Shown here piece by piece: positions 2,125 through 10,758 of a stretch of 64,000 bases of DNA. Under the pieces are notes generated by a model. That model did not search any database. It saw only the letters and a list, made by a program, of their open reading frames with translations, and was not told the DNA's origin. Position 1 is the first letter of the stretch. Each line of letters begins with the position of its first letter. This DNA comes from an uncultured Paracoccaceae bacterium (GTDB lineage Bacteria; Pseudomonadota; Alphaproteobacteria; Rhizobiales; Rhizobiaceae), in contig CALMYO010000088.1 of assembly GCA_937873685.1 (NCBI GenBank), forward strand, positions 1 to 64,000. Direction: 5' to 3'. The translations under genes and the position numbers were made by a program.

Positions 2125-5064
2125 TTATTGCGCGATCAACTCGTCTGGTCGCGGTCGGAACTGGCGGTGTTCCGAAACGCTGGGGGAGCCGGAGGCGGCG
2201 AAAGCAGCGAGTCGCCGCTTCCGGTCCAGCATCTCGACATCGCTTGCCGTGTTGCATCGCCGTGGCATCGTTTCGCCAAGCGGGCCGCTGTCGACTGCGA
2301 AGGCATTCCACTCCCGCAACCGTCCCACCGAGGCAAAGAGCCACCGGAAGGGATCGTTGGGGTCGCGATGACGGGCGTCGAGATCACCGCCTTGCGCATG
2401 CCCGGCAAGATAGAAGACACCGTTCGACGGCGACAGGCGGGTGACGACATACAACTCGCACCCGAAATTCGGATGGTCGAGCGCGACCAGATCGCCGCGG
2501 CCAAGGCGCATGACGAGTTTTGCGCCCATCCGCTGCGTTTCCCAGATGGGCCGCCAGCCCGCGATCCGCGCATCCCGCTCCAGCGCGGGATAGCTGCGCC
2601 ATGTTCCGTCACGCATCTGGACGACATCGATGAACCGGACGCGCGGCCGCGCATGGGCGCGCATCCGGGAAGCCTTGCTTTCGACAACGGCCAGATCGAC
2701 CGCGTGAAGCCGTCTTTCAACACGGACCCGTTTGCATCGCGCCTGCAAGGCCTGAACGCCGCCGGCAAGCGCCAGATCGCGCAGGCGCCGGTCGGCAATG
2801 CGGGGAAGGTCGGTCGCGGTCAGGTCGCGCAGTGCCGTGCGAACAACGAAACGTTCGCTGCCCCGGCCATCCCGGCGAAAGCCGATCGGTGTTTCATCGT
2901 GCAGCTTGATGCGGTGTTTAGCCATGCAGCCGCGGATCAGTGAAACGCCCCACGTCCCGGCCAACCGCCCTGTATCGGCGCGAACCTTCTCATCGCATGC
3001 AGTCGCACCTGGAACTTTTTCCCTTTGCGGCGCAGCATGGCGGCAGGCAAGCTCCAAGGCGTCCTCGCCATGATGGCGCAGGTCGCGCCGGTCCTTTGCA
3101 CCCGGCCTTGCTGGAACCGGCGCAAGGAAGAAACGGGCTTGCGGCGCCAGTTCCTCGGCAGTTTCGATGGCGTCGCGCAGCAATTCCGAGGTCTCTGCGA
3201 TGCGCGCAGTGTTGGACACCGGCTCTGTCGATCCATAAATGGCGTCGCGGCGCTGCGGATCGAGAAGCGCCGCCCGCATGACGATACCCGGCCATGTCGG
3301 CAGTGCGCCGAAGGCTTGAACCGGCGTGCGGTCGCCTTTCCACGCATTCATGGCGGCATGGCAGAGCACAGTGTTTGCGCGATCCGCGCTACCGCCTTGC
3401 GACCTTGGCGCGATATGGTCGATCTCGATCGTCGGCCCAACCAGCGCCTCGGGATGGATTGGCAAACCCGAATAGGGGCAAGTAACCTTGCCGTCCGCGC
3501 CGCGCTGATCCAGCCACAGCGCCGCGCGCCTGCGATTTGCAGGCGTGGCGCGGGCGCCGATGCGATGCAGAAGCTCCGCGACATCGGCTGCCCTCTGCGG
3601 CGTGCGCCGCGATGCGGCGGCATGGATGTTTTCGAACACGATTTCGTCCGGTTGACCGAAACCGGCGATCATGGCCTGCAGCAGCCGGGCAAAAGCCGAC
3701 TGCCCCGGATGAGTGCGCCACGGTGGCCGCGGCGGTTCTTGCAGCACAATGCCGAGCCGGTCGAGATCGGCACGGGCGATGCGCCAGGCTTGTCGCGGCG
3801 AATGCGCAGGTCTGCCCGCCTCGCCGCCGAAGGCGAACAACAACGCGGCGCCGAGATCGGCAGGCAAGGCCTTGCGCGGGCCCTTCGGCAGTTGATCGAC
3901 GACCATACGCAGGCAGCGCGCAAGCGCGGCAAATGCCGGCACGGAAAGGTTTGCGTCCGGCGTTCGTTGCGTGCCGAGCGCGGCGGCAAGGATGGCGTCG
4001 CGACTGCCAAGCGGCAAAGTCGCCCAGAGCGCGCCGTTACGGGGAAAACGGCGCAACGCGGCCGATATACGGCACGAGACAATCACGGGCGGTGAATGAC
4101 CGGTCATGGCCGAAATCCGTTCGTTCTCATCGAGGCCGAGCGCAACGCCGGCCCTTCGCGCGGTCATCACCTCGCCGCGCAGGGCCATGTTGGCCAGGGT
4201 ATTGCGTTCTCTGCGCGACAGGCGGCGAAATGCGCCGTCGGATTGGCGAACGCGCAGCCGCGACAGGGCAAACAGCACGCGCACCGCCTCTTGCGATGGC
4301 AAGGCCGGCATTTCTCCATGCCCGCCCGGGGAGCTCCGTCCCGGTCCGGCGGAACGGCGTGGAGACGCGAAAGCCGCCGCCTCGATAGCCGCACGCAACC
4401 CATCCGTGAAGATCTCCGGGTTGAAGCGCATCTGGGCGCGCCACAACGCATCGAATTCGTTACGAACCTGGTGCGCCATGCGTTCCGGGATGCCTTGCAG
4501 ACTGTCCGTCGAAAGATGCGCGCGCCGGATCACCGCAAAGCGTTGCCTGACCGGTCCGGCATGACGTTGCCATAGCCTTTCGCCGAAGGTGCGGCTTGCG
4601 GGCGGCCGGTCGGTTGCTTCGTCGTCTGGTCCGCTCCCCAGCAGGTCGCCGTCCTCTGGTGGAGCTGGCTGCGAAGGCCGGCCGGTACGACGAAGCAAAT
4701 GCAGCAGGGCCCGGCCCGCCTCGTGCGGCGCAAGCGCACGGTCGAGCGCCTCGGCGCGTAACAGCCAGGGATCGCGCTCGAACGCATCATCGCAGGATTG
4801 CCCGGCCGGCGGCAGCAGACCGTTACGGCGCATAATCTCCACCAGCCGTTTGCGCCTGCGGCGCATCAGCCTGCGGCGTTGCTGGCGACGACGCAGGCGG
4901 CGGAACCGGTCAAGCGTTCTCGCGCCGTCATGCGCATCGTGCACGACAACACCGCACCAAACCGGCCCAGCGCTCACTGCCCCCGTCGCAGGCGCATTGC
5001 CCGAGCGGACCGCCGCCGCCCCGATCGAACGGGCTCCGATGTCGAATGCAAACACCAGTCCCAT
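2125..5064 (-). CDS. cas9: type II-C CRISPR-associated endonuclease Cas9, stand-alone
   Basis: RNA-guided DNA endonuclease of 979 residues, close to the compact type II-C size. RuvC-I is FAFDIGARSIG with D8. An arginine-rich bridge helix covers residues 51-81. RuvC-II is EIVFENIHAA with E478. The HNH domain has CPYSG, then EIDHIAPRS with H550, and N573 in AMNAWKGDRTP. RuvC-III is RHHGEDAL with H664, H665 and D668. All nuclease residues are therefore present. The C-terminus carries the type II-C hallmark DARHRDPNDPF followed by SGPLGE, as in the WED/PAM-interacting end of Neisseria-type enzymes. The ATG at 5064 is preferred because it places RuvC-I at residue 8; a TTG at 5091 would add nine residues. 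It lies convergent to the L,D-transpeptidase gene, with 96 bp between them and no cas1, cas2, csn2 or array on either side. A tracrRNA-like gene starts about 70 bp upstream on the opposite strand. What the protein targets, and its PAM, cannot be read from sequence. Confidence 0.95.
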   Translation of the reverse strand: MGLVFAFDIGARSIGAAAVRSGNAPATGAVSAGPVWCGVVVHDAHDGARTLDRFRRLRRRQQRRRLMRRRRKRLVEIMRRNGLLPPAGQSCDDAFERDPWLLRAEALDRALAPHEAGRALLHLLRRTGRPSQPAPPEDGDLLGSGPDDEATDRPPASRTFGERLWQRHAGPVRQRFAVIRRAHLSTDSLQGIPERMAHQVRNEFDALWRAQMRFNPEIFTDGLRAAIEAAAFASPRRSAGPGRSSPGGHGEMPALPSQEAVRVLFALSRLRVRQSDGAFRRLSRRERNTLANMALRGEVMTARRAGVALGLDENERISAMTGHSPPVIVSCRISAALRRFPRNGALWATLPLGSRDAILAAALGTQRTPDANLSVPAFAALARCLRMVVDQLPKGPRKALPADLGAALLFAFGGEAGRPAHSPRQAWRIARADLDRLGIVLQEPPRPPWRTHPGQSAFARLLQAMIAGFGQPDEIVFENIHAAASRRTPQRAADVAELLHRIGARATPANRRRAALWLDQRGADGKVTCPYSGLPIHPEALVGPTIEIDHIAPRSQGGSADRANTVLCHAAMNAWKGDRTPVQAFGALPTWPGIVMRAALLDPQRRDAIYGSTEPVSNTARIAETSELLRDAIETAEELAPQARFFLAPVPARPGAKDRRDLRHHGEDALELACRHAAPQREKVPGATACDEKVRADTGRLAGTWGVSLIRGCMAKHRIKLHDETPIGFRRDGRGSERFVVRTALRDLTATDLPRIADRRLRDLALAGGVQALQARCKRVRVERRLHAVDLAVVESKASRMRAHARPRVRFIDVVQMRDGTWRSYPALERDARIAGWRPIWETQRMGAKLVMRLGRGDLVALDHPNFGCELYVVTRLSPSNGVFYLAGHAQGGDLDARHRDPNDPFRWLFASVGRLREWNAFAVDSGPLGETMPRRCNTASDVEMLDRKRRLAAFAASGSPSVSEHRQFRPRPDELIAQ

Positions 5065-5096
5065 CGCGTCGTCCCGCAAGGGGTGTCGCAAGGGAA

Positions 5097-5131: not shown

Positions 5132-5212
5132 CGTTCCACCAGCGGAACACTGCCGCCCTCCGCCGACAAGGCTGAAGAGCCGCAACGCGAGGCGGGCTCC
5201 GGTCCGCCTCGC
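5132..5212 (+). ncRNA. tracrRNA-like RNA divergent from cas9
   Basis: The segment has the order of parts expected of a type II-C trans-activating CRISPR RNA. Bases 5132-5166 are a putative anti-repeat of 35 nt. Bases 5165-5181 form a nexus: GAC-AAGGC, then a small hairpin GGCT-GAAG-AGCC. The linker GCCGCAACGC follows (5179-5188), the same ten bases found at this place in the Neisseria meningitidis tracrRNA as I recall it. A hairpin with 11 paired bases and a UCCG loop ends it (5187-5212, GCGAGGCGG pairing with CCGCCTCGC). No T run follows, so termination efficiency is uncertain; a weaker GCCCT/AGGGC hairpin comes next at 5217-5239. The anti-repeat contains an internal GTTCC/GGAAC inverted repeat. 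No matching CRISPR repeat was found in the window. The call rests on structure, position beside cas9 and the nexus sequence; expression is unproven. Confidence 0.75.
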
Positions 5213-5244
5213 ACACGCCCTACAGTCTGTCTACAGGGCCTAGA

Positions 5245-5319
5245 GCGTTGTTCGATCAAATTGAATCGTTTGGACGCCGGGATCTTGTGTCCAAACAATT
5301 CAATTTGACCGAACGACGC
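5245..5319. repeat. imperfect 31-bp inverted repeat between the cas9 locus and pobA
   Basis: Arms 5245-5275 and 5289-5319 pair over 31 bp with three departures from perfect pairing (one of them G-T), around a 13-base loop. CTAG motifs lie just outside both arms (5240-5243 and 5321-5324), and the right side reaches the pobA stop codon. The core is much more AT-rich than its surroundings (TCAAATTGAAT). It resembles the dispersed intergenic palindromes common in Rhizobiales genomes, which is an inference without a search. As RNA it would fold into a strong hairpin and could end pobA transcription. It also marks the outer edge of the cas9/tracrRNA locus. Confidence 0.8.
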
Positions 5320-5320
5320 C

Positions 5321-6520
<1,200 letters not shown>

Positions 6521-6603: not shown

Positions 6604-8307
6604 CTACTCGCCGCCGCCCTGCTTCTTCAGCGCGGCGCCGAGGATGTCGCCGAGCGAAGCGCCGGAATCCGACGAACCGAACTGCGCCACCGCTTCCTTC
6701 TCCTCGGCGATTTCCAGCGCCTTGATCGAAAGTTGGACCTTGCGGTCCTTCTTGGAGAAGTTGATGACTCGCGCATCGACCTTCTGGCCGACGGCGAAGC
6801 GCTCGGGACGCTGCTCGTCGCGGTCGCGCGACAGGTCGGAACGACGGATGAAGCTCGTCAGGTCGTGATCGACCAGTTTCACCTCGATGCCGCCGTCGTT
6901 GATCGCGGTGACTTCCGCCGTGACGACGGCGTTCTTGCGCAGTTCGCCGGACGCCGCCGCCTCGCTGACGCGGTCGCGGCCGAGCTGCTTGACGCCGAGC
7001 GAGATGCGCTCCTTCTCCACATCGACATCGAGCACCACGGCGCGAACCATGTCGCCCTTGTTGTACTCCTCGATGACCTGTTCGCCCGGACGGTTCCAGT
7101 CGAGGTCGGAGAGGTGGACCATGCCGTCGACATCGCCGTCGAGGCCGATGAACAGACCGAACTCGGTCTTGTTCTTGACCTCGCCCTCGACTTCCGAACC
7201 CACAGGATGGTTCTGCGAGAAGCTCTGCCACGGGTTGTCGAGCGTCTGCTTGAGGCCAAGCGAGATGCGGCGCTTCACCGGATCGACCTCGAGCACCACC
7301 ACGTCGACTTCCTGGCTGGTAGACAGGATCTTGCCGGGGTGGACATTCTTCTTCGTCCAGCTCATTTCCGAGACGTGGATCAGCCCCTCGATGCCCGGTT
7401 CGATCTCGACGAACGCGCCGTAGTCCGTGATGTTGGTGACGCGACCGGTAATCTTCTTGCCGATCGGATACTTGGCGCCGATGCCCTCCCAGGGGTCGGA
7501 CTCCAGCTGCTTCATGCCAAGGCTGATGCGGTGGGTTTCCTGGTTGATGCGGATGATCTGCACCTTGACCGTCTGGCCGATGTTGAGGATCTCGGTTGGA
7601 TGGTTGACGCGCCGCCACGCCATGTCGGTGACATGCAGCAGGCCGTCGATGCCGCCGAGATCGACGAAAGCGCCGTAGTCGGTGATGTTCTTGACGACGC
7701 CGTCAACCACCTGGCCTTCCTCGAGGTTCTGCACGATCTCCGAACGCTGTTCGGCGCGGCTTTCCTCAAGCACGGTGCGGCGCGAGACGACGATGTTGCC
7801 GCGGCGCTTGTCCATCTTCAGGATTTCAAACGGCTGCGGGATGTTCATCAACGGCGAGACGTCGCGGATCGGGCGGATGTCGACCTGGCTGCGCGGCAGG
7901 AAAGCCACGGCGCCGTCGAGGTCGACGGTGAAGCCACCCTTGACCTGGTTGAAGATGACGCCTTCGACGCGCTCGCCCTTGCCGAATTTTTCTTCCAGCT
8001 TGACCCAGCTTTCCTCGCGGCGCGCCTTGTCGCGCGAGAGCACGGCTTCGCCAAGCGCATTTTCCACGCGCTCGACATACACCTCGACAGTGTCGCCGAC
8101 CTTCAGCACGGCATCCTTGCCCTTGGCGCCGAATTCCTTCAGCGGTACGCGGCCTTCGACCTTGAGGCCGACATCGATGATCGCCATGTCCTTTTCGATG
8201 GCGACGACCGTGCCCTTCACGACGCCGCCTTCGTAGGATTCCTGGGCATGGAAGGATTCTTCCAGCAGGGCTGCGAAATCGGCGGTGGGGGGATTGTATG
8301 GTGACAG
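6604..8307 (-). CDS. rpsA: 30S ribosomal protein S1
   Basis: The largest ribosomal protein, which binds mRNA and helps bring it to the 30S subunit. Six S1 (OB-fold) repeats are visible, for example GFTVDLDGAVAFLPRSQVD, YGAFVDLGGIDGLLHVTDM and YGAFVEIEPGIEGLIHVSEM. The C-terminus FGSSDSGASLGDILGAAL is the typical rhizobial end. The conserved rhizobial start region (FAALLEESF) begins at residue 11 here. A perfect Shine-Dalgarno AAGGAGG lies at 8318-8312, but no ATG, GTG or TTG follows it in frame before the conserved region. The only plausible initiator at the right distance is CTG (8307-8305), giving 567 residues, the normal family length. The frame is open further upstream, but those residues are not S1-like. 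cmk lies upstream on the same strand, the usual cmk-rpsA order. Confidence 0.95.
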   Translation of the reverse strand: MSPYNPPTADFAALLEESFHAQESYEGGVVKGTVVAIEKDMAIIDVGLKVEGRVPLKEFGAKGKDAVLKVGDTVEVYVERVENALGEAVLSRDKARREESWVKLEEKFGKGERVEGVIFNQVKGGFTVDLDGAVAFLPRSQVDIRPIRDVSPLMNIPQPFEILKMDKRRGNIVVSRRTVLEESRAEQRSEIVQNLEEGQVVDGVVKNITDYGAFVDLGGIDGLLHVTDMAWRRVNHPTEILNIGQTVKVQIIRINQETHRISLGMKQLESDPWEGIGAKYPIGKKITGRVTNITDYGAFVEIEPGIEGLIHVSEMSWTKKNVHPGKILSTSQEVDVVVLEVDPVKRRISLGLKQTLDNPWQSFSQNHPVGSEVEGEVKNKTEFGLFIGLDGDVDGMVHLSDLDWNRPGEQVIEEYNKGDMVRAVVLDVDVEKERISLGVKQLGRDRVSEAAASGELRKNAVVTAEVTAINDGGIEVKLVDHDLTSFIRRSDLSRDRDEQRPERFAVGQKVDARVINFSKKDRKVQLSIKALEIAEEKEAVAQFGSSDSGASLGDILGAALKKQGGGE

Positions 8308-8645
8308 GAGTCCTCCTTGACCGCCGCCGCAACGGGGCAGCGCGCGCCGGGGGTTGGTGTTGCGTTCGTATGCGCCCGCCCCCCGCCGGTCTTCGGCGGG
8401 CATGTCCGGCGCCTGGCCGGCCGCAAACCTTGTTACTTGGACCGTGTTGCGGCCGCGCCGTTGTGGCGCTCCGTCGCTTGGCCCGTCATTGCCGCGTTGA
8501 TGCGACGCCGGGAATACGCCCGGCCCGAAAACGCGCAGGGGGCGAAACGCCTCTCGCGCCGCCCCTTGGCCTGTCAAATTCGCGGAACACCGCGCGGCTT
8601 CCGCGAATCTGCATCCCGGAACCGTGTCTGCGGTCCATTGGACCG
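8308..8645. other. 338-bp spacer between cmk and rpsA with a 10-bp perfect hairpin
   Basis: This stretch holds no credible gene. It is the leader of rpsA and the trailer of cmk. At 8578-8608 a perfect 10-bp inverted repeat (ATTCGCGGAA / TTCCGCGAAT, 11-base loop) lies 37 bp beyond the cmk stop. It could be a cmk terminator without a clear T run, or structure in the rpsA leader, where S1 is known in other bacteria to regulate its own translation. The rpsA promoter was not identified with confidence. Confidence 0.5.
8311..8318 (-). promoter_or_regulatory. strong Shine-Dalgarno of rpsA that decides the start
   Basis: The minus strand reads AAGGAGGA here, a full complement to the 16S rRNA 3' end. 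The CTG codon three bases further on is the only near-cognate initiator at a workable distance in the S1 frame, which is why the start is placed at 8307. Confidence 0.75.
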
Positions 8646-9546: not shown

Positions 9547-10758
9547 ATGGAACCGGGAGCTATGGGCCGCGGATGGGCGACGACGGTTGCGCTCGGAGTG
9601 TCGATGACCGTCAGTTACGGCACGCTGTTCTACTCCTTTGCGCCGCTCGCCGCATCCTTCATGGCGGAGTTCGGCTGGTCGCGCAGTTTCGTCTTCGGTG
9701 TGTTCTCTGCGGCCTTGCTGGCGGGCGGCGTCGTTGCGCCGATCACCGGTTGGCTGATCGACCGTCATGGCGCGCGCCCTGTGATGAGCGCGGGCAGCAT
9801 CGCTGCGGCCATCGCGCTCCTGTTCCTGTCGAGAGCGGATGGCGAGGCGCAATTCATTGCGGCCGTCATGATTTGCGAAATGACGGCGCTTGCAGTGCAA
9901 TACGAGGCCGGGTTTGCCGCGCTGGCCCGGATTCACGGTCGCGAAGCACGCGGGCCGATCACCGGCGTGACGTTGATCGCCGGTTTCTCCTCCACCGTGT
10001 TCTGGCCGCTGATCGGCTGGCTGCTGCATTTGACCGACTGGCGCACGATCTACCTGATCCTTGCGGCCCTGAACCTCATTGTGTGCCTACCGATCCATCT
10101 CGCCTTGCCGCGCCGGTGCGCCGGTCCGGCCACAGGATCGCCCGATCTTTCCCCGTCGCCGCTGTCACATGACCTTGCGGCATTGTCCGGGCGGAAGCGT
10201 CGGCGCGTGCTCTGGCTGATGCTGCTTGCGTTCACCGCATCCGGCTTCGTGGTTTCTGCGGTGCAGTCCGGATTTCTCGTCATCCTTGCCGATTTCGGCT
10301 ATGCGCCTGCCGTGGCGGCCACAATCGGGGCGCTGATCGGTCCGTCCCAGGTTGGAGCGCGAGTGGTGGAAATGATCTGGGGCCGGCGCGGCAGCCCGGT
10401 CCTGGTCGGCCTGCTGGCCAATGCCAGCGCCGCTTTCGGCGTGCTGTGCCTGCTTTTCGCCGCTTCAGGCGAGGCCATCGCGATCCTGTTTGCGATTGCC
10501 TACGGGGCCGGTCAGGGCCTCGCCTATATCGTGCGCGGCGTCATCCCGTTGCATTTTTTCGGGCCGCAGGGCTACGGCGCCCTCACCGGCAAGCTGTCTG
10601 CGGTGCGAATCGCCTTTTCCGCCGCCGCGCCGGTCAGCGTCGCTGTGCTTTCCGACACCTTCGGCGTGGAGGCCGGGATCGCCCTGATGCTGCTTGCCGC
10701 GTTCATCGGCGTCGCTGCGATGGCCGGGCTTCTGGCCATCGATCGAAAGGTTACCTGA
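9547..10758 (+). CDS. MFS transporter
   Basis: A major facilitator superfamily protein of 403 residues with about twelve predicted membrane segments. The cytoplasmic loop motif GWLIDRHGARPVM between helices 2 and 3 is the classic MFS A-motif. The N-terminal half (YSFAPLAASFMAEFGWSRSFVFGVF) resembles the monocarboxylate/oxalate-type branch, so an organic acid substrate is possible but unproven. The start at ATG 9547 places the first helix about 12 residues in; an ATG at 9562 is an alternative. The reading frame stays open upstream to 9223 without family-like sequence. The last 8 bp overlap the 3' end of the convergent BTLCP gene. Confidence 0.85.
   Translation: MEPGAMGRGWATTVALGVSMTVSYGTLFYSFAPLAASFMAEFGWSRSFVFGVFSAALLAGGVVAPITGWLIDRHGARPVMSAGSIAAAIALLFLSRADGEAQFIAAVMICEMTALAVQYEAGFAALARIHGREARGPITGVTLIAGFSSTVFWPLIGWLLHLTDWRTIYLILAALNLIVCLPIHLALPRRCAGPATGSPDLSPSPLSHDLAALSGRKRRRVLWLMLLAFTASGFVVSAVQSGFLVILADFGYAPAVAATIGALIGPSQVGARVVEMIWGRRGSPVLVGLLANASAAFGVLCLLFAASGEAIAILFAIAYGAGQGLAYIVRGVIPLHFFGPQGYGALTGKLSAVRIAFSAAAPVSVAVLSDTFGVEAGIALMLLAAFIGVAAMAGLLAIDRKVT

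Follow-up and report, generated by a model that had tools for sequence, protein, structure and literature searches.

What does a Cas9 with intact catalytic sites do when no clustered regularly interspaced short palindromic repeats (CRISPR) array lies beside it? The question is posed by a gene, here termed solo cas9, in the stretch of DNA that we analysed (the window), which comprises the first 64,000 bases of a 67,642-base contig (C88:1-64000; window base 1 is contig base 1) from an uncultured bacterium, the one genome in its genus, assembled in 298 contigs at 92% completeness. An earlier note, written from these letters alone, had described a solitary, intact Cas9; that picture stands, although it overlooked a type II-C locus elsewhere in the genome, a trans-activating CRISPR RNA (tracrRNA) gene directly upstream, and a clade of related solo genes. 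With moderate confidence, we favour a functional, array-independent lineage of Cas9 and tracrRNA that would be RNA-guided and work outside adaptive immunity; a non-immunity role is suggested by the occurrence of stand-alone Cas9s of this kind in three related bacteria.

Solo cas9 occupies 2125-5064 of the reverse strand as an open frame of 979 residues from an ATG (988 if a TTG at 5091 is the start). When the protein is aligned with nine other Cas9s, the residues D8 (RuvC-I), E478 (RuvC-II), H550 and N573 (HNH), and H665 and D668 (RuvC-III) are invariant and H664 is nearly so. The protein retains the recognition (REC) lobe and carries an arginine-rich bridge helix and DARHRDPNDPFRW, its C-terminal motifs (WRPIWE..AKLVMRL..GD and RHRDPNDPFRW) being encoded within the same interval and strand; the size, the catalytic sites, the bridge helix and the II-C motif are thus all as first described. 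The Cas9 profiles of PADLOC match it (E 2.7e-19). The marks of the family are present together: the catalytic residues of both RuvC and HNH, the bridge helix and a match to the Cas9 profile. The predicted product is a Cas9 with intact catalytic sites, and a very divergent one, because it scores 97.2 bits with NCBIfam TIGR01865, just under the cut-off of 100; two of its relatives reach 110 and 188 bits. The Cas9d profile stays far below its cut-off of 375 with the window Cas9 and relatives (80.5, 85.8 and 60.8 bits), as does the IscB profile below 175 with the solo Cas9s tested (30.6 and 20.9 bits). AlphaFold gave a model of the window Cas9 that is too poor for use (pLDDT, the predicted local distance difference score, of 59); for the compact Zhengella relative (pLDDT 71; predicted template-modelling score 0.36), the best Foldseek matches are SaCas9 and Nme1Cas9, and its predicted fold matches Cas9 structures.

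Those relatives came from a search of 398 sampled genomes of the family. Outside the window genome, its best matches were the stand-alone Cas9s of three more bacteria: Zhengella mangrovi X9-2-2, Notoacmeibacter sp. MAG_40 and Phyllobacteriaceae bacterium SP17. A second, overlapping set of 397 Zhengella relatives added none, single-protein scans of GTDB and of viral contigs gave no close orthologues (none in phages), and a plasmid scan returned just annotated, more distant Cas9s. The four proteins are 35-55% identical, yet the catalytic residues are kept in all of them. The window Cas9 has some 230 residues of the REC lobe that the other three lack; the frames are open in Zhengella (about 724-749 residues) and Notoacmeibacter (751). 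Neither cas1 nor cas2 lies beside these three genes, and cas1 is altogether absent from the Zhengella genome, whose completeness is rated at 100%. In Notoacmeibacter and SP17, cas1 does adjoin arrays, whose repeats are unrelated to the solo loci and are, we assume, type I-C-like. The stand-alone state first noted in the window is therefore shared by its closest relatives, and classical immunity looks unlikely for the lineage, in keeping with the earlier suggestion of another function.

We placed the four solo Cas9s in a tree with 21 alphaproteobacterial II-C Cas9s (roughly 19 of which come from cas1 loci; II-C was the only subtype included). They form one clade, with support of 100/99, separate from the other 21; the window branch is long, and long-branch attraction is possible. 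Motifs of the domain that interacts with the protospacer-adjacent motif (PAM), together with the tracrRNA design, tie them to the branch of Rhodovulum sp. PH10, and we consider it fairly probable, on this comparative evidence, that they are a small stand-alone lineage derived from a PH10-like branch of alphaproteobacterial type II-C. The lineage is rare (4/398 sampled family genomes) and its location differs by genus: Zhengella and SP17 keep cas9 and tracrRNA at one site, between what are presumably a LysR gene and a cryptochrome-like gene on our reading of the sequence, and the other genera have theirs at different loci, that of Notoacmeibacter next to a gene that we take to be phospholipase D-like. 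Synteny is consequently conserved in part, and the idea of a copy conserved in a rhizobial core setting is not supported; the finding falls short of the earlier note in this respect, and exceeds it in revealing a clade with a retained tracrRNA.

The tracrRNA is the second element that the four loci have in common. In ordinary alphaproteobacterial II-C loci it is found upstream of cas9, on the opposite strand, in the order anti-repeat, CCGTTAAC, AAGGC...GCC nexus, hairpin with a CUCCGG loop, and T-run; a block common to all four solo loci lies at the same place and, read on that strand, shows the same order of elements. We built one covariance model (R2) from nine cas1-linked II-C loci only, and another (R1) from solo and ordinary loci. 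R2 finds the window element at 5141-5214 of the forward strand (28.2 bits, E 5.5e-7) and those of the other three solo loci at 33-39 bits, and R1 recovers tracrRNAs of ordinary loci left out of its training. The window core, divergent from cas9, comprises a partial anti-repeat, a lower stem, a nexus hairpin at 5170-5181 (GGC-TGAAGA-GCC, preceded by GACAA where ordinary loci have AACAA, as aligned with ordinary tracrRNAs) and a terminator-like hairpin at 5189-5210, GAGGCGGG-CTCCGG-TCCGCCTC, both on the forward strand; the letters of the latter are identical to those of the Rhodovulum PH10 hairpin. Covariation supports the hairpins, with 13 cells changed on both sides vs 4.0 in shuffles. The Zhengella and SP17 cores share 93% identity over 70 bp, and most of the other intergenic DNA from LysR to cas9 is unalignable. 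Each of the three relatives has one tracrRNA, and the window genome has two, one of them in its other II-C locus. The solo cas9 thus retains, in all four loci, a putative, divergently placed tracrRNA gene, and in the window it has the nearby tracrRNA that type II-C loci possess. We rejected the reading of this element as an omegaRNA-like RNA encoded on the same strand as cas9, since one invariant pair forms G-U when the tracr strand is read and would be A-C on the other, and since the tracrRNA models match the strand opposite to cas9. A search against Rfam gave no match, and those further R1 matches in the four genomes that we inspected look like generic terminators without a nexus.

The gene itself bears signs of constraint. 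Identities at the three codon positions between Zhengella and SP17 are about 0.66/0.72/0.43, and the ratio of nonsynonymous to synonymous substitution (dN/dS) is 0.28-0.38, vs 0.145 and 0.148 for flanking genes; these ratios are rough, since dS is near saturation, and they cover the Zhengella-SP17 pair, with the window copy outside it. Judged by these substitution patterns, the lineage is under purifying selection that is relaxed relative to its neighbours, which qualifies the earlier view of a protein probably under selection. A dN/dS in this range, and the fact that two species have kept the gene at one site, speak against its being a pseudogene.

Turning to possible partners, neither cas1 nor cas2 lies beside the window gene over 2.0 kb to the left and 59 kb to the right, and no array was found in the 64 kb window, nor any mini-array in the flanks of the solo loci, as the earlier note had said for the window. 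It had reasoned that a cas1-cas2-array module just left of base 1 would make this an ordinary split locus. The contig begins at base 1, so that sequence left of the transpeptidase gene is out of reach, and the single Cas1 match in the genome is on another contig, C190 (5.4 kb; locus L002, C190:1-5442). There it adjoins a different cas9 (1105 residues) and cas2; the locus has a tracrRNA with its T-run, and a first CRISPR repeat stands where the contig ends. The C190 Cas9 is about 26% identical to the window Cas9; in the tree it pairs, at 60% identity, with an ordinary Cas9 from the same family. The module imagined left of base 1 is thus not what the assembly shows, but the window genome does carry a second, ordinary type II-C CRISPR-Cas9 locus besides solo cas9.

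The sequences show, then, that solo cas9 has no adaptation genes or array beside it, that the nuclease and bridge-helix residues and the tracrRNA have been kept, and that three relatives have lost most of the REC lobe. Bearing these observations in mind, we hypothesize that the protein would still bind its tracrRNA, by way of the bridge helix, the nexus and the 3' hairpin, and would bind or cut DNA as programmed by RNA. Its role would lie outside adaptive immunity and might be to control a locus of the host or of a resident element; its guide might be a diverged CRISPR RNA (crRNA) acting in trans, or the tracrRNA transcript itself. Several observations weigh against this proposal. The evolutionary rate of solo Cas9 is two to three times that of the neighbouring genes. 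The T-run after the terminator hairpin is absent in all four loci, with 0-3 T in the 8 bases after the hairpin vs 4-7 in ten ordinary loci. The SP17 gene has one frameshift near an A-run. Pattern searches, used in place of array detection over all contigs, found no crRNA repeat matching the solo tracrRNA in the draft genomes of the window bacterium, Zhengella and SP17, nor any array with a tracrRNA-pairing repeat in the window, the flanks and these three genomes: the expected 24-mer has a single occurrence in the window genome at up to 3 mismatches, and the 17-mer gave background matches only in Zhengella and SP17. The lack of a matching repeat fits an array-independent lineage; what weighs against the proposal is that no guide RNA was found, so that RNA-guided function is something that we only infer. 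A built-in guide is unsupported, because the 5' part of the solo tracrRNA has no folding advantage over shuffled sequence or over ordinary tracrRNAs.

The main rival is slow decay, in which a type II-C remnant lost its array and adaptation genes first and eroded its REC lobe and terminator later, its frame remaining uninterrupted because stop codons are scarce in GC-rich genomes. We regard this as rather unlikely, but it accommodates much: the loss of REC in three members, the lost T-run, the fast evolution and long branch, the frameshift in SP17, the lack of a crRNA partner, and a GC content at third codon positions of 0.72, lower than that of the neighbours (0.80-0.86; the C190 cas9 has 0.67, and its overall GC of 0.58 is well under the window's 0.67). 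It was on account of the REC loss, the missing T-run and the frameshifted copy that intact active sites, previously held to argue against decay, proved insufficient alone. What decay explains poorly is that four diverged copies all retain their catalytic residues, that the codon-position pattern and a dN/dS well below 1 persist over a long divergence, that the tracr core is better conserved than its surroundings, and that two species keep one site. Of the orthologues, whose disruption was named earlier as a sign of decay, that of SP17 is frameshifted and those of Zhengella and Notoacmeibacter are open; the SP17 frameshift, lying in an A-run of a metagenome-assembled genome, may be a sequencing error.

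Ordinary immunity from a split system, with solo Cas9 drawing crRNAs from an array elsewhere (that of C190, or an unassembled array of its own), we consider improbable. C190 does offer cas1, cas2 and at least one CRISPR repeat, and an assembly of 298 contigs at 92% completeness favours the loss of an array; against this, the anti-repeat side of the solo tracrRNA mismatches the C190 repeat, the expected repeat occurs nowhere else in the window genome at up to 3 mismatches of 24, and Zhengella, fully complete by its rating, lacks cas1 and matches the repeat at background only. Genome-wide, therefore, cas1 and cas2 do exist, with a different cas9 and a repeat of its own, and not beside solo cas9. 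Least probable of all is that the tracrRNA transcript serves as a natural single guide with which Cas9 represses its own or another promoter, for which there is the precedent of tracr-L, a tracrRNA isoform that acts in this manner (PMC11417352), besides the divergence of tracr and cas9 from one short promoter region and the missing crRNA, but the z-scores for folding of the anti-repeat side lie close to zero, like those of ordinary tracrRNAs, the 5' extension has no self-match longer than 13 nt to the flanks save for a palindrome in Notoacmeibacter, and the extension seen in Zhengella is not conserved in SP17.

We return, then, to a functional Cas9-tracrRNA lineage, of which a stronger version may be put forward only tentatively, being in our view doubtful: that this nuclease-intact, partly REC-less Cas9 left adaptive immunity permanently, with its tracrRNA and without an array, and now serves, under RNA guidance, in chromosomal regulation or DNA processing, its guide being of an undescribed type.

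Other features of these loci deserve mention. The window gene lies, as reported before, between what we take to be an L,D-transpeptidase-like gene (1-2028, forward) and pobA (5321-6493, reverse), and open reading frames past pobA presumably correspond to rpsA and cmk, these names being our reading of the sequence. At the 3' end of pobA, a 36-bp inverted repeat with a 13-nt loop (5240-5324; no strand assigned), rich in GATCAAATTGAATC, probably belongs to pobA, perhaps as a terminator, or is a repeated palindromic element, rather than a part of the Cas9 locus. Transposon ends were not seen at the solo locus, although no dedicated search was made. The three compact solo loci have a palindrome, AATGGYG...CRCCATT, between tracrRNA and cas9 (L055, about 8570-8625; L056, about 10440-10490; L057, about 8150-8200), perfect over 15+15 bp in Notoacmeibacter and not evident in the window. 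Among other II-C loci, one (L018; G016:C227, 7107-9865) has cas1, cas2, a 5-repeat array and only about the last 280 residues of Cas9, the N-terminal part not being found on its 9.9-kb contig; another, on a contig classed as viral (L079; IMGVR_UViG_2576861810_000003), is a full locus with cas9, a cas1/cas2 match, a tracrRNA and about 33 repeats, several of its spacers recurring many times.

RNA-guided nucleases moved from transposons into CRISPR systems, and a Cas9 lineage that left CRISPR with its RNA partner would, if confirmed, be a reverse step. In the open-access literature (most subscription journals were outside our scope), we found no description of a Cas9 lineage outside CRISPR that keeps a tracrRNA. 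An array-free function, if true, would also provide a natural compact Cas9 of about 725-750 residues with one RNA, and such repurposing would be directly testable, as Zhengella mangrovi X9-2-2 is an isolate in which experiments are possible.

Among known systems, the nearest are the Rhodovulum sp. PH10-type II-C loci (L078, L019, L071, L020 and L021), which share the Cas9 domain order, active sites and PAM-interacting-domain motifs, and likewise have a tracrRNA upstream on the opposite strand with an identical terminator hairpin; they differ in having cas1 (in those examined), arrays or T-run tracrRNAs, whereas the solo loci have no adjoining cas1 or array and three lack REC. The C190 locus has the same general design of Cas9 and divergent tracrRNA, with the adaptation genes, repeat and T-run that the solo locus lacks. 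The type II-D proteins Cas9d and Cas9c2 are compact (600-1050 residues), with a reduced recognition lobe and adaptation genes often absent nearby, and are reported to be encoded beside CRISPR arrays in all cases (PMC9755519). The solo Cas9s resemble them in compact size, small REC and missing adaptation genes, but those proteins are array-adjacent and belong to a different branch, the solo Cas9s scoring 61-86 bits against the Cas9d cut-off of 375. The tracr-L of Streptococcus pyogenes shows that repression by Cas9 can be guided by a tracrRNA in the absence of a crRNA (PMC11417352); it belongs to a full II-A locus, and in the solo tracrRNA we found neither a single-guide fold nor a clear local target. 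IscB with its omegaRNA is likewise one RuvC-HNH protein with one adjoining RNA gene and no array; the solo protein, in contrast, is a Cas9 by profile and tree, and its putative RNA is a tracrRNA encoded on the opposite strand.
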